Positions 2,712 through 12,783 of a stretch of DNA of 64,000 nucleotides are shown in pieces. A program made the position numbers and the translations under genes. The DNA is from Erythrobasidium yunnanense. Taxonomy: Eukaryota; Basidiomycota; Cystobasidiomycetes; Erythrobasidiales; Erythrobasidiaceae. Under the pieces are notes generated by a model, which did not search any database, was not told the DNA's origin, and was given only the letters and a program-made list of their open reading frames with translations. Positions within the stretch are counted from its first letter, which is position 1, and the number at the start of each line of letters is the position of its first letter. The stretch is taken from contig BCJC01000008.1 of assembly GCA_001600175.1 (NCBI GenBank), forward strand, positions 1,242,781 to 1,306,780. The letters run 5' to 3'.

Positions 2712-2788
2712 TGGTGGGTCATGTAATGTTGGTAGTAAGTTAACGATCTTATGTTGGGTCTCGGGTTGTAATCGTTACGCCATATCTA

Positions 2789-3115
2789 ATGCGACTTTCT
2801 TTGATACGACGGTCGCTGCCTCGGCTCACACTCTACACTGGCGGTCCTGAATGCTCGCTGTGCGAAGTTGCGAAGGAGAAGCTCGACGAGATGCGATCGC
2901 ACTCTGCGCCTTTCGAGCTTGAAGCAGTCAACATACGCGCAAACAGGACAGACAAGGAGCTCAAGAAGGCGAGGAGATTGTGGCAGTACGATATACCGGT
3001 GTTGCTGCTGGACGGGAAATACATCATGAAGCATCGCATCAACGAATCGCGACTTCTCGAGCTGCTCGAAGAAGCCAGCAAAAGCAGGAGTAGCAACAGC
3101 TCAAGGAAGACGTAA
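2789..3115 (+). CDS. glutaredoxin-like small thiol protein (DUF836 / YDR286C-type)
   Basis: Single-exon gene for 108 residues. A thioredoxin-fold start, LTLYTGGPECSLCEVAKEKL, carries a CxxC active-site pair (CSLC), followed by the cis-Pro region YDIPVLLLDGKYI typical of the glutaredoxin-like family that includes yeast YDR286C and human C5orf63. The basic, Leu-rich first dozen residues could act as a mitochondrial presequence, though this is only suggestive. The C-terminus is a Ser/Lys/Arg tail. It starts only 78 bp after the glucanase stop, on the same strand. Function in this family is poorly known; a thiol-disulfide role is inferred from the CxxC. Confidence 0.8.
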   Translation: MRLSLIRRSLPRLTLYTGGPECSLCEVAKEKLDEMRSHSAPFELEAVNIRANRTDKELKKARRLWQYDIPVLLLDGKYIMKHRINESRLLELLEEASKSRSSNSSRKT

Positions 3116-3903
3116 CAAGCTATGTATATGTATACTCAAGAGAAGAGGATGCGTTACTGGCTACAGCTCGGAGTGCCCTTCTGACCTGAACCGTCGACTC
3201 GCATTGCCCGCGAGACTGGTGCAATCGACCACTTCCGCCCGCCCTGGTATTCCATCGTCATGAAGTTATACGTTCATTAGATGCAGCCAAGCACCTCGTC
3301 ATTGGCATGCAGCGACCAAGTCTGGGAAGAAAAGGCTGGCTGTCTCAAATCAAAGGCTTCGATACCGACGAGAAAACTCGCTGACGTTGGCGACACCGTT
3401 ACATCACCTCCACGCTACACGAGTATGCTATCAAGAATACTCTCCAACCTCTGTCGTCTCTTTTCAGCGACCGTGCCCTTATGCGGAAGCCGGACACCGG
3501 CCACCTGCCTGTCCGAGCCAACGCTCACTGTCAATATTATTGCATTGAGTAGATGGCACGCTGTATACACTGAAAGGCACCGTACCTTTCAAGCTGCGTG
3601 CCCTGTCCTGGCCAAATGTGCCTGGCAATTATGAGCGAAAGCGGAAGTCGAAGCATGGCAATTTAGCAAGAACCTTGGCTAGAACATCCTACATACGTTC
3701 CAACTCTCTTCATCCTCTCTTTCCTCTACTACCCAGTCAATCTTCAAGCAAGACAACTCGAGCTAGACTCCTATCCGAACATAGCTGGACTATCGTTCGA
3801 CGCACCTTCATCTTTCTTCAGCCAACGTAGATCATCTTTCGCAAACCTTTTTCAACCCACACATCCACCTTTATTCACTCGTCGATATCTCAAGCCCGCA
3901 AAA
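3116..3903 (+). other. intergenic region with pyrimidine-rich leader
   Basis: Nearly 790 bp without a convincing gene. The frames present have no recognisable similarity or splice-linked continuation. The last 200 bp before the protease start are rich in CT tracts and end in an A-rich start context (gcaaaaATG), consistent with a promoter and 5' leader for the downstream gene. Confidence 0.5.
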
Positions 3904-6499
3904 ATGCATACACCAACTCTCATTCAGACGGCTTTCACAGCAGCATCCCTCATCGCTGGCGCAGCTGCTGCACCTGTAAGACGTGGATCAGTAGTCGACG
4001 ATGGCTTCCCCTCGGCACCTCCTTCTCGCCGCGGATCGTTTGTAGGCGATGAGCTTCCCTTGTCTAGACGTGCATCTATAGTCGAGCTTCCGACTCCACC
4101 TTCACGAAGAGGATCAGTGGTAGATGAGACAGCATCCTTGTCCGCCAGCCGACGTGGCTCGCTAGCCGGTGCGAACGATATCACCGCATCTCGTCGACGC
4201 TCTCTGGCACCTGAAGACGTACAACCCGCACGAAGAAGCTCAATGGCAAATCCTGGCGACATCTTCGCAGCTCGCAAGCGCTCTGTCCTGGCTGAAGATG
4301 CCCCTGTCAGGCGCAGCTCAGTAGCTGGTCCTGCAGACATAACTGCTTCCCGCAGACGGTCTCTGGCTCCGGAAGATGCTTACGAATTCCCAGCCCGGCG
4401 CAGTCTCGCTGCACCATCACCAGCCGATATTTTCGCTGCTCGATCCCGTGCATCTGCACCTGGCTCGTCAGCTCCGCTCCAAGTCAAGGTGGATGTCCAA
4501 GCCGAGGAGGCAGACGAGGATGACACTCCTTTTGTGCAATCGCCTGTCTCGACCTCCAATGCTCCCACTGCTGCAGACATCTTCAACGCTCGTCGACGCT
4601 CTGCTACTCCCGAAGCGCCTGTTCGAAGGAGCTCCCTCGCGCCCTCTGCAGCTGATATCGTGGCGTCTCGCAGAAGATCAGCTGTAGAGATACCGGCAGA
4701 GTCTCTCAATCGGAGAAGCTCGGCCGCACCCTCTCCCGCCGATATTTTCAATGCAAGAAGGCGATCAGCTATTCCAGAAGCAGCTGACCCTCAATTGGCG
4801 AGGCGCAGCTCGCTCGCTGCTCCACAAGACATTGTCTCTTCTCGAAGGCGATCCTTCGCAAACGGCGACAACACTCCATCTCGCCGCTCATCCCTAGCCA
4901 ACGAGCTTCCCGTCTGGCGGACTTCATTTGGTGCAGTTCCTCCCACCGGAGGTTCAGTCGTGGTCGAAGAGGAGGTCGCACCAGAGGACGATGTTCCAGA
5001 AGCTTCTACATCCGCATCCCCTGCTGTTGCCATCATACCCCTTCACAAGCGCGCCGAAAACCCTCTGGCTCACGAGGACGGCTCCGTCAATTGGCATGCA
5101 GCTACCGTATGTCACCTTCTCCAAGTCTTCGTCAGCGTATCTACTTTGAGCTGACAATTGTATCCCTACTAGGCTCATCTTGACCACATCAACATAAAAT
5201 ACGAAAAGGGCATCATCGCACACCAAGTCAACAAAGGCGAGCCTTTACTAGATGCTCGTCACTACAGCCCAGAAGAACTGGTTGAGCGAGAAGAAACCCT
5301 AGCGAAAAGGGCAACAGAAGAGTTGGCGGAAGAGGCAGTAGCACCCGAGGAAGCTGGCGATGATGATCTTCCTACTGTCGAAGACGACTTTATGGCTGGA
5401 GCCACTGAGTTCTCGGTGGGTAACCCGAATCTAGCCGCCTTCAAAAGCAAGGCCGTCAAGAGGCAGAGCGGTGTTAAGCTTACTGCGTATAACAATGACC
5501 TATGTGAGCTTTACTTAATCAAGCTTCAATTCCTTTCTTCACTGACTCTCACTCTTCTCGACAGTATGGGCTGGTCCCGTGACAATAGGCAGCAATGCGC
5601 AACCATTCATCCTGGACTTCGATACAGGCTCCGCCGACACTTGGGTTCCTTCCAAGAACTGCAAGTCCTCTGCGTGCGCCAAGCACCACAAATATGACCC
5701 TTCAGCAAGCGAGACGTCCGATCTCATGAGCGACAACAAGCTCAGCATCCAGTACGGTGACGGCAGCACTACTACTGGGCAAGTATACCAGGACAACCTC
5801 ACTATCGCTGGCATGACCGCCAAAGACCAGACTATCGGAGTCGCGACCACTCTATCGAGTTCTTTCGCCAATGATCCTCATGATGGCATCATGGGCATGG
5901 GCTATCAAAGTATTTCACAAATGAACGAAGCTCCTGTCTTCCAGACTTTGATGAAACAGAACAAAGTTTCGAAAGCTCAATTCTCCTTCAACCTGAACTC
6001 CGGCGGCGGTTCCGAGCTATACCTTGGCGGCGCTAATCCCAACAAGTATAAGGGCAATATGGAGTGGCACGATGTGGTATCTGAGAGCTACTGGGTACTT
6101 CAAGCGGATGCTCAAGTGAACGGCAAGACAGCGGCGGACGATTTCTACGCGATTGTCGATACTGGCACTACTGTCGTAGTCGCACCTACCGCGCAAGCGA
6201 AAGAGTTCTGGTCTAAAGTCGAAGGCTCGCAACCATACTCCGGTGGCTACTACACTTTCCCGTGCGACAGTGCACCAGAAGTATCGTTCAGCTTTGGCGG
6301 CAAGAAGTGGGAGATGTCTGAAGGCAACCTTAACCTAGGCGCTACTCAAGCTGGCTCTGATAGATGCGTTGGCTCCATCGTTGGCATGGATGTTGGCATA
6401 TCAGCCTGGATCATCGGAGACTCTTTCTTGAAGGATGTATACACCACTTTCGATTTTGACAAGAACCGAGTTGGCTTCGCGGAGAAGTCGGATTCGTAG
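3904..6499 (+). CDS. pepsin-like aspartic protease with long repetitive dibasic prodomain
   Basis: Three exons (3904-5106, 5173-5503, 5565-6499) encode about 822 residues, twice the normal size for an A1 aspartic protease. After a signal peptide ending in GAAAA comes about 330 residues of degenerate repeats of the type PADIFNARRRSA-x-PEA-xx-RRSSLAP. They hold some 20 dibasic sites, nearly all in R-R-x-S or R-R-S context. A second pro-segment with acidic runs follows and ends at AVKR (about residue 498), the probable kexin site releasing the mature enzyme. The catalytic half has both aspartates, in DFDTGSADTWV and VDTGTTVVV, and ends with the usual IIGDSFLKDVYTTFDF. The enzyme is probably secreted and self- or kexin-matured. 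The repeats could be spacer, autoinhibitor or a source of released peptides; their role is unknown. Confidence 0.9.
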
Positions 6500-6690
6500 A
6501 CCGTACAGTAGGGGATGAAGTGTGTATGGAGTCTTAGATTCGCTAGAGGCTGTTATTGTTATTATAGACCGCATCCTGCAGATTAATCGCATGCAAACAA
6601 GAACGTATTGGGGCTCACTTGTCTTATTATTCAGCCGCATTGACTTGTCAAGCTGCACTATGCTACACTCTTTGCCATTACCTAGCTACT

Positions 6691-9951: not shown

Positions 9952-12783
9952 CTACAACTCTATGAGCAAGCTCTTGCTGAGCACCTTACACCTCACATCC
10001 GGATCGACCACGATTGTCTGGGTATTATCGATAATCAGTGCCGGTCCTTTCACCAAATTTCCTTCTTCAAGCTGTTCGATCTCGTATATCGGACAATCGT
10101 CTATCCTGCCCGTCTCTTCAAAATAGACAGAAGTCGTTTTTTGGCTTTTCGGAATCTCCTTGAAGTCAATGGAGTCGGCTTGTGAGAGTATACTAGGCTC
10201 AACGCCTGTTGATGACTTTCCAATGCCACGCACGCGGACATCGTCAACTATGATGTTCTTGTCTTTGAGCACGAAGCCGAATCTGCCATGATTCAGCTCA
10301 TGTTCAGCGAGAGCATTATAGAAACGAAGCTTGAGAGCTCACTCCTGCTTGTAATTATCCTCAAAGATCTTCTTATCGATCCAGCCCTCCTTCGGCCGTT
10401 TCGTCATAAGCGGCGTGTCCGTCCCATCGTATCTCAAATTCAGATATTCTTCGACTTCGATATGGTCGTCGTCAAAGCCAGCTGCTTCGAGTTGTTTCCG
10501 AACGCCTTGAGCTAATGATTCTAAGCGAGGCTGTAAGCGGCCCTGCGCGTCGTCTTTGTTGAAGGTCTCGGATGAGGGTTCTTGCTTTTCAAACACGCTG
10601 CGAGGGGCAGATCGTCAACTTTGGTCTGAAGTACTCGGTGGCACCACTTACCGATCTGACAAGCTCATACCGTACGCCGACAGTATGCTACTGAATCGAT
10701 GTACCAATACCGTTTTTATGCCCAGCGTCTTGGCCAATGAACAAGCATGTTGGCCTGCGGCTCCTCCAAACGCCGCCAGCAGATGCTTAGCAGCCGAGTA
10801 TCCTCTAGCTTCTGTTAAGGCTCGTATAGGCCGCGACATGGTCTCGTTCGCAACTTTGATGAAGCCCCAGGCTATCTCGTCTAATGACATGTCATGCGAC
10901 AGCTGCGGCCTGATTTCGTCTGCAAGCTTGGAAAAGGCTTTGCTGGAAGCTTCGATGTCCAAAGCTATCGCAATCATTCAAGGTCAGCCTGGCCGGCAGA
11001 AAAAATTACTAAAGCGGCGGGACCTACGTTGATCCTCGGTTTCGCCGAAGATCTTGGGGAAGTAATCTGGTAACAAACGACCCAGTAGGAGGTTCGCGTC
11101 CGTGACGGCTAGAGGCCCGCCTTTTCGATAGCAGGCAGGTCCAGGGTCACCTTTTGCAGATTCTGGACCGCAAGTGAAGAGGCCATTCCGGAAGAAGAGT
11201 CTGCTACCACCTCCAGCAGCGACAGTGTCTACGTAATCCCACTCGTCTTAGCTCAGGACCGAAAGAAAAGGGGACGAGACGCACTGATGTCGAGCTGCGG
11301 ACTTTGTATAGCTATCCCGGCTGTAGTCGTCTCGAAGACAATCTCATATTCTCCTGCATACCGACTGACGTCCGTCGAGGTTCCACCCATATCTAAACCC
11401 AAGCACGGCTGTCGTTTCTTTTCGTCCCACGAAGTCATGGCATACCCGACAACACCTCCCGCAGGTCCAGAAAGAATCGAATGTAGTCCACTGAAGGTAT
11501 TCACATCCGTCAAGCCTCCGTCTGAGCGCATGAACTCGACACGAGTATTCTTCTTGTTGATCTCGCGACTTTTCGAGATTGTCTTGTCATCGTTGGTATT
11601 CTCTGTCTCCATACTAGCAGCTGCTTCTACGCCTTTCCGCAGTGATTCATCGAAGCCATCAAAGAATCCATTTATATAATCTTGTAGGATGGGCGTGAGG
11701 TACGCATCCGCAGATGATGAAGCTCCTCTCGGCACGGCTTTGATAGTAGGCATGATCTGGCTGGATAGAGAGATCTGGTGAAAGCCTACTTCTTTCGCTA
11801 TCTTTCCGACTAGAAGCTCGTGTTCAGGATATGTGTAAGAATGGATAAACACGACAGCTAGGGAGCGGAAGCCTTCGTCGTGCAGTTTCTGGAGATCTTG
11901 CCGGATCGCATCCTCGTCTGGCTTTTGCAAGATCTGGACGGCTTCACCTGACAGTCCGCGAACGATGTCTTTGCTGTCTTCGGAAGAAGCGCCATCATAG
12001 CCTCGTTCGACGGAGCCATCTTGCCCGAACTTGACTTCGCGCTCTTCTCGCTTCGGATCGCTCGTGAAGCCAACTAGTGTGACGCGCTCGTCCACTTCGA
12101 TTACTTTCTGGTAAAGCACTTCTGGCTTCTGGATATTTAGGGCGAATATGTTCGGGCGGGACTACAGGAAGGAAAGGAGCTGTTAGCATGTGCAGATACT
12201 ATATCAGACATATAACATGCCTGATTGCCTATAACGAGCAGGTCCTTGAAGCCCTTCGTTGTCAGGAGCGCTACTTTGGCACCTTGCCTTTCGAGCAGCG
12301 CGTTTGTCGCAACCGTCGTACTCAGTCTAGAGCACAATATCAGCCAAATGAACGGTCATGACAACAGACTGACCCACCTGATCGTGCCAATCTTCTCGGT
12401 CGAGAACTTCTCTTCTCTGGGTATCTTTTTGCCCAAGACTTGTTCAAGGACTCTTCGGATACCTTCTCTAGGAGCGTCTTTATAGTTGGCAGGGTCCTGC
12501 GATAAAAGTTTGAGCACGACTTCATGACGCTGCCCTTCTTTGCCGGATGCCTAGTTGAACGAGGGGACGATGAGCGAGCATGAACATATCAGGATGGATA
12601 TAGTAGGAGCATACAGAGGATGAAGACGAAGATGTGGAAGGGTCGGCAGGCCAGGATGCGTAAACGTCGGTGAAAGTGCCTATTCAGGACGGAGTCAACT
12701 CGCGAGCAGCAAGGCCAGAACGACGACAGCGCACCTCCTCTGTCGACGCTGATATGTATCGAGTGGTCTGGGATGTCGGGCAT
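9952..12783 (-). CDS. 5-oxoprolinase HyuA-like half only (truncated OPLAH)
   Basis: 5-Oxoprolinase opens 5-oxoproline to glutamate with ATP in the gamma-glutamyl cycle. Nine exons give about 789 residues covering the hydantoinase A-type N-terminal and middle domains: [83 protein letters not shown]. The frame then stops at 9952 where normal fungal enzymes (near 1,290 residues) continue into the HyuB half; there are only 64 bp before the next gene, so the HyuB part is absent here. Intron 4 (12220-12162) appears to use a GC donor. Either this is a stand-alone HyuA-type ATP hydrolase subunit or a truncated enzyme. The reading frame shows no damage upstream of the stop. Confidence 0.85.

Follow-up and report, generated by a model that had tools for sequence, protein, structure and literature searches.

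An R-R-x-S repeat array ahead of a pepsin-type aspartic protease in a predicted secreted protein of Erythrobasidium yunnanense

The locus and its gene model

The window analysed here, a stretch of 64,000 nucleotides from the basidiomycete Erythrobasidium yunnanense, carries at 3904-6499 on the plus strand a gene modelled with three exons and a predicted product of 822 residues. The first coding exon (3904-5106, plus strand, 401 codons) is followed by a GT donor at 5107, and both introns have GT...AG ends. The original prediction had located an aspartic protease within 3904-5106; the protease is in fact encoded by exons 2 and 3, outside this interval. The order of the parts along the predicted product is a probable signal peptide (residues 1-22, with a Kyte-Doolittle mean of 1.5 over residues 6-22), an array of basic blocks (26-328), a linker, a propeptide and the protease domain (514-818). 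A single open frame runs from the signal peptide across the array and up to a landmark that the paralogues also have. The main elements of the model are the following.

3904-3969, plus strand: probable signal peptide, residues 1-22 (MHTPTLIQTAFTAASLIAGAAA), assigned from the sequence by eye and from hydropathy
3979-4887, plus strand: array of 19 RR, RRR or RKR blocks, residues 26-328, read from the sequence
5035-5052, plus strand: IPLHKR landmark, residues 378-383, shared with paralogues (VPLYKR, IPLGKK)
5107-5172, plus strand: intron 1, 66 bases, GTATGT...CTGAC...TAG, with CTGAC as a branch-like site
5173-5503, plus strand: exon 2, remainder of the propeptide
5504-5564, plus strand: intron 2, 61 bases
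5565-6499, plus strand: exon 3, A1 protease domain

Intron 1 has a length divisible by three yet contains an in-frame stop at 5152-5154. If it were retained, the frame would encode an array-only product of 416 residues, and such retention would yield a secreted array devoid of the protease. The frame also extends 5' of the start codon as far as 3667, with neither a stop nor a Met. It includes, at 3820-3849, the segment SQRRSSFANL, which resembles the array unit SRRRSFAN and may be a relic, part of an unrecognised upstream exon or a chance resemblance. The neighbouring genes comprise a piece of a GH5 cellulase (1327-1881), a glutaredoxin-like DUF836 protein (2744-3112) and a piece of a hydantoinase/oxoprolinase (11256-12161). 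A Pfam scan of 20 frames of the window (19 of 64, plus one shorter frame) gave no match suggesting a biosynthetic cluster.

Register, spacing and age of the array

The repeated RR-Ser array described in the original prediction is confirmed, with adjustments. It spans about 303 residues, not about 330, and its 19 basic blocks consist of 12 RR, six RRR and one RKR; the plain KR sites also listed at first do not occur in the repeats. The claim that almost every block is followed by Ser applies to 14 of the 19 when the next residue is considered, the others being followed by Gly (4) or Ala (1). A stricter regularity appears one position further on, since 18 of the 19 blocks are in an R-[RK]-x-S register, with RRSL at residue 165 as the sole exception. 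The first five blocks (RRGS/RRAS) follow a simpler pattern; from residue 91 onward, seven two-block units can be aligned, a degenerate eighth being omitted. The spacing of block starts is 11-16 residues in 17 of the 18 intervals, and the remaining gap is of 65 residues. The repeated part is organised as follows.

4174-4422, plus strand: three two-block repeat units, xDIxxxR[RK]RS...RRS, from the alignment
4402-4590, plus strand: 63-residue spacer lacking a dibasic site and containing an acidic stretch, read from the sequence
4423-4455, plus strand: degenerate unit ADIFAARSRAS within this spacer, read from the sequence
4573-4902, plus strand: four more two-block repeat units, from the alignment

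This regularity exceeds what composition produces. In 20,000 letter shuffles of the 318 residues downstream of the signal peptide, R-[RK]-x-S occurred 1.09 times on average and at most seven times, against 18 observed, and the number of basic blocks averaged 6.3 with a maximum of 14, against 19. When the blocks were held fixed and only the spacers were shuffled, the motif still reached a mean of only 4.5 and a maximum of 13. The window has 88 frames of 130 codons or more, a count that takes in overlapping frames and non-genes. Of these, the array frame has 19 occurrences and the next-best frames two; the nineteenth is an RRSS located 5' of the start codon.

The repeats are old. Comparison of the copies gave a pS of 0.82 and a pN of 0.22 when all four motif codons of the 18 sites were taken, 0.89 and 0.13 with the R, R/K and S codons alone, and 0.79 and 0.26 over ten codons of eight DI units. 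By codon position, the differences were 0, 0 and 0.78 for the Ser codon (153 pairs) and 0, 0 and 0.62 for the Asp-Ile codons, the low values at first and second positions being largely built in because the sites were chosen for matching the motif. The motif Ser is encoded by TCN in all 18 cases, and the other Ser codons of exon 1 comprise 31 TCN and seven AGY; neither this codon use nor the saturation of third positions follows from the choice of sites. At the DNA level, the longest identity shared by any pair among the seven units runs to 14 bases, and Tandem Repeats Finder reported no DNA tandem repeat in 3800-6600. Third codon positions are saturated and the copies are therefore not recent; the persistence of the motif despite this saturation indicates selection on the array at the protein level.

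A protein search of the genome retrieved no further copy of the array. It returned the gene itself and one weak match (C5:232945, E 0.04); this candidate was rejected, the frame at that position being devoid of an RR array. A nucleotide pattern encoding D-I-x-x-x, then a basic-rich triplet, then Ser, gave 32 matches, seven of them in the array gene. The reversed control gave 29, so that the 25 matches outside the array gene are at about chance level, and none of these lies near another. On contig C10, an identical 26-base match at positions 2292 and 55565 on opposite strands hints at an inverted duplication there. Collections of viral and prokaryotic contigs, which are uninformative on fungal orthologues, yielded no relatives of the array or of the protease.

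The protease, its propeptide and its paralogues

The C-terminal part of the product belongs to the A1 family, with a match to Pfam PF00026 (Asp) at an E value of 2.8e-83 and 280.4 bits against a cut-off of 19.9. The closest solved chain is 9uf9 (E 3.2e-102, 51% identity). As in other A1 zymogens, the catalytic motifs are preceded by a propeptide with kexin-type KR sites.

5305-5310, plus strand: KR in exon 2, residue 446
5458-5463, plus strand: KR in exon 2, residue 497
5621-5632, plus strand: first catalytic motif, DTGS, from the alignment
5753-5767, plus strand: flap YGDGS, with the flap Tyr, from the alignment
6158-6169, plus strand: second catalytic motif, DTGT, from the alignment

The KR sites at 382, 446 and 497 bound and split the propeptide and lie outside the repeats. 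The mature enzyme probably starts after the last of them, at QSGVKLT. The original prediction set the array against known prodomains of about 50 residues; here 115 residues separate KR382 from the mature enzyme.

The joining of the array to the protease is supported by homology. The propeptide of the paralogue on contig C5 aligns across the splice junction with both the tail of exon 1 and exon 2, at an E value of 4e-16 computed as a two-sequence comparison and with 26% identity over 186 columns, which also cover the beginning of the mature enzyme; the paralogue on C8 gave a weak match (E 0.002). This bears on the possibility that the gene model is an artefact and that the repeat exon is part of another gene. 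The exon joining is indeed a matter of modelling, and retention of intron 1 would leave an array-only frame. Nevertheless, the array and the IPLHKR landmark share one exon, the homology crosses the junction and exon 2 has by eye no signal peptide of its own, and an artefact of this kind is considered extremely improbable.

The paralogues also indicate where the array sits in the zymogen plan. The sample, a subset of the A1 matches of the genome, comprised eight regions and one further locus (L002). For five of these nine, the start codon and the landmark were assigned by eye. The landmark, or what is probably its counterpart, begins at residue 34 in C5, 27 in C8, 33 in C9 (which has IPLRF with no basic pair), 41 in C2 (the region at 861k) and 58 in C7 (the assignment being loose in these last two), against 378 in the array gene. 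The array thus lies between the signal peptide and the propeptide, where the protein has about 340 more residues than the C5 paralogue. From sequence comparison, it is most simply read as the expansion of a short stretch present at this place. No array was seen in the paralogue frames (of at least 50 or at least 75 residues), whose prosegments carry scattered basic sites.

Two paralogues call for separate mention. The C5 paralogue (L024, G000:C5:1682300-1686300, minus strand), the closest in this region, has a propeptide that ends in a polybasic stretch (KKKRRRRSERHAKRAKARRQ) directly ahead of the mature enzyme. Another locus (L029, G000:C1:4556000-4559600, minus strand) shows, upstream of its A1 domain, a Ser/Thr-rich frame with RRSST and RRTT, a possible small-scale version of the array.

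Processing of the array and comparison with known repeat precursors

The continuous frame, the homology across the junction and the existence of a kexin gene bear out the layout originally put forward, that of a Kex2-processed repeat precursor with a protease as its last part. The proposal built on this layout is that a secreted A1 zymogen had the segment between its signal peptide and its propeptide, short in the paralogues compared, turned into a Kex2-processed array. Kexin in the secretory pathway would cut after the RR and RRR blocks and release about 17 peptides of 8-14 residues along with two longer pieces. A further cut at IPLHKR, probably a kexin site, would free the propeptide-protease, and cuts at KR446 and KR497 would mature the enzyme. 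The peptides and the enzyme would then leave the cell together, from one transcript and in a fixed ratio. By analogy with other Kex2-repeat proteins, the peptides might have an extracellular or cell-surface role, as signal or coat, though this is a weak suggestion. The release of about 17 short acidic peptides by kexin, followed by their separation from the protease at IPLHKR, is judged to have an even chance of being correct; splicing, secretion, cleavage and a function for the peptides are all steps that we infer.

Besides its register, spacing, age and position relative to the paralogues, several properties of the array are consistent with such processing. In-silico cutting after the basic blocks yields 17 peptides of 8-14 residues and longer pieces. 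All 17 have a net charge of -1 to -3, and their N-termini are Ser (12), Gly-Ser (4) or Ala-Ser (1). Their summed pairwise similarity is greater than in all 2000 pool shuffles and all 2000 shuffles within peptides. Of the 19 sites, 15 have Pro, Ala or Leu in the P4 position, which suits Kex2, since the enzyme favours these residues according to PMC8528282. The genome contains one match to the kexin P-domain, at a locus where subtilase motifs and a membrane segment are recognised by eye, in a piece that does not extend to a confirmed N-terminus. Genes of Peptidase S10, the family of Kex1, are also present. The array is, in addition, predicted to lack a fold when modelled from its single sequence.

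Other properties count against kexin cutting. According to PMC2515848, acidic and small residues are over-represented at P1' and P2' of cut Kex2 sites, and to a moderate degree at P4'. In the array, acidic residues are found at P1' and P2' of none of the 19 sites and at P4' of one, while Ala, Val or Leu occupy P1' at one site and P2' at seven. Lys is at P2 of a single site, the sites being of the RR type and not KR. This imperfect subsite fit and the Arg-only sites speak against the proposal, as does the strictness of the R-R-x-S register, which exceeds what kexin requires.

The same imperfect match favours a different reading, in which the array would be an uncut, disordered polyampholyte pre-segment acting as a whole and removed only at IPLHKR. 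Such a segment could prevent activity of the acidic enzyme, or maintain its solubility, while it passes through the secretory pathway, or it could tether the zymogen to an anionic surface. The RR blocks alternate with acidic spacers, every one of the 17 short spacers being net negative, and the mature enzyme has a net charge of -14. An AlphaFold2 model of exon 1, computed from the single sequence, predicts no stable fold (mean pLDDT 44.7) beyond five short helices, four at DI[FV]xxRxR units and one at 117-124 adjoining such a unit. Charge alone, however, leaves the fixed R-R-x-S register and the recurrent Asp-Ile pair unexplained, and kexin would be expected to cut RR sites that lie exposed in a disordered secreted chain. 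This reading, whichever of these roles is assigned to the segment, is considered unlikely but credible.

The register itself recalls the consensus of protein kinase A (PKA), R-R-x-S followed by a hydrophobic residue. The original prediction had raised this resemblance, and all 18 sites do fit it: the residue after R-[RK]-x-S is V, I, L, M, F or A in every case and other than Ala in 14. The array could accordingly be a multi-site phosphorylation region or a decoy for basophilic kinases, in a protein located at least partly outside the secretory lumen. The Pfam profile of the CFTR regulatory domain, a region phosphorylated by PKA, weakly matches exon 1 (E 0.0013, 18.7 bits) and the whole protein (E 0.0076, 16.3 bits), but both scores are below the cut-off of 22.5 and the array is not assigned to this family. 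The unit xDIVASRRRSA may resemble the PKA inhibitor peptide; a search of the PDB with the repeat profile gave three weak matches, with neither this peptide nor any other kinase ligand among them. The apparent signal peptide and the secreted type of the protease and its propeptide disfavour the intracellular role, and the kinase reading is held to be improbable.

The protease might also cut its own array at basic residues, in the manner of yapsins, which cleave basic sites. Its flap reads YGDGS, and in some fungal pepsins this Asp goes with a preference for basic residues at P1, a relation that none of the titles and abstract openings listed evidently addressed. Against self-processing, the dibasic sites and the kexin gene make a second convertase needless, and the paralogue-like chain 9uf9 has an identical flap, with no array that we know of; this mechanism is rated very improbable.

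Among the closest known systems are the Kex2-processed repeat proteins (KEPs), which PMC6339444 and PMC7329392 define as proteins with a signal peptide whose repeats are delimited by Kex2 sites. Like them, the array protein has an apparent signal peptide and a tandem series of similar peptides, 8-14 residues long, between RR or RRR, and its genome contains a kexin. It also encodes more than one type of peptide, as do some KEPs (79 of the 1193 surveyed, in the text of PMC6339444 available). Unlike the KEPs described there, it continues into a full aspartic protease, its repeats occupy a smaller share of the protein, and its sites are Arg-only but for one (RKR) and in fixed register with Ser.

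The procedure of PMC6339444 calls for a signal peptide by SignalP, and the array protein has an N-terminus that is hydrophobic by eye and by hydropathy. An emulation of this procedure gave 22 fragments besides the C-terminal one, a number which the procedure accepts. Motifs common to at least three fragments were found in groups of four and three, with assumed background frequencies and with one member of the group of four being a short partial match in a 53-residue fragment. The coverage, (4x11 + 3x12)/822 or 9.7%, is below the floor of 15%, and the array protein is consequently not filed as a KEP in the sense of that survey. This shortfall depends on the strict grouping, the coverage by the 17 core peptides being 23.7%. 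The rule in the consulted part of PMC7329392 asks for at least three tandem repeats, with at least eight residues between basic pairs and none above 100. On repeat number and length, the array has 17 spacers of 8-14 residues; the authors also apply a 40-residue seed test. The array protein would work like a KEP if kexin cuts it, which is given an even chance.

Other known systems share some of these features. In Hum3 of Ustilago maydis (828 residues; PMC4617103), a secreted hydrophobin domain comes after repeats that carry putative Kex2 sites. It is a precedent for the fusion of Kex2 repeats to a secreted folded domain, although its repeats are amphipathic and of 31-36 residues, whereas the array gene has a spacing of 11-16 residues and ends in an enzyme. 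Precursors of ustiloxin-type RiPPs, as outlined in PMC7329392, likewise combine a signal peptide with Kex2-type repeats. The analogy with ustiloxin drawn at the outset is not supported: Tyr is found by eye in only one of the 17 short core peptides, and no UstYa (DUF3328) match was obtained in the genome, in a search run with no positive control. The array also differs from such precursors in being joined to a protease. The word "aspartic" is absent from the main texts of PMC6339444 and PMC7329392, no Asp profile is among the abundant types in the part of Table 2 of the latter that was examined, and no protease fused to Kex2 repeats is described among the titles and abstract openings listed.

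The boldest reading would be that of one gene delivering a pepsin-type protease and about 17 secreted peptides in a fixed ratio, in a strict R-R-x-S-hydrophobic register, a zymogen pre-segment having become a precursor of peptide-hormone-like or coat peptides. It is offered tentatively, as somewhat less than probable. The array, with its 19 sites of the Arg-Arg type, provides a natural substrate for work on kexin specificity, and survey rules that demand a set repeat share could miss enzyme-fused precursors. If the array is cut, an enzyme and many small peptides would be hard-wired into joint secretion, the gene would offer a simple way to test the function of Kex2-repeat peptides, and the pre-segments of zymogens would be suggested as a birthplace of Kex2-repeat precursors.
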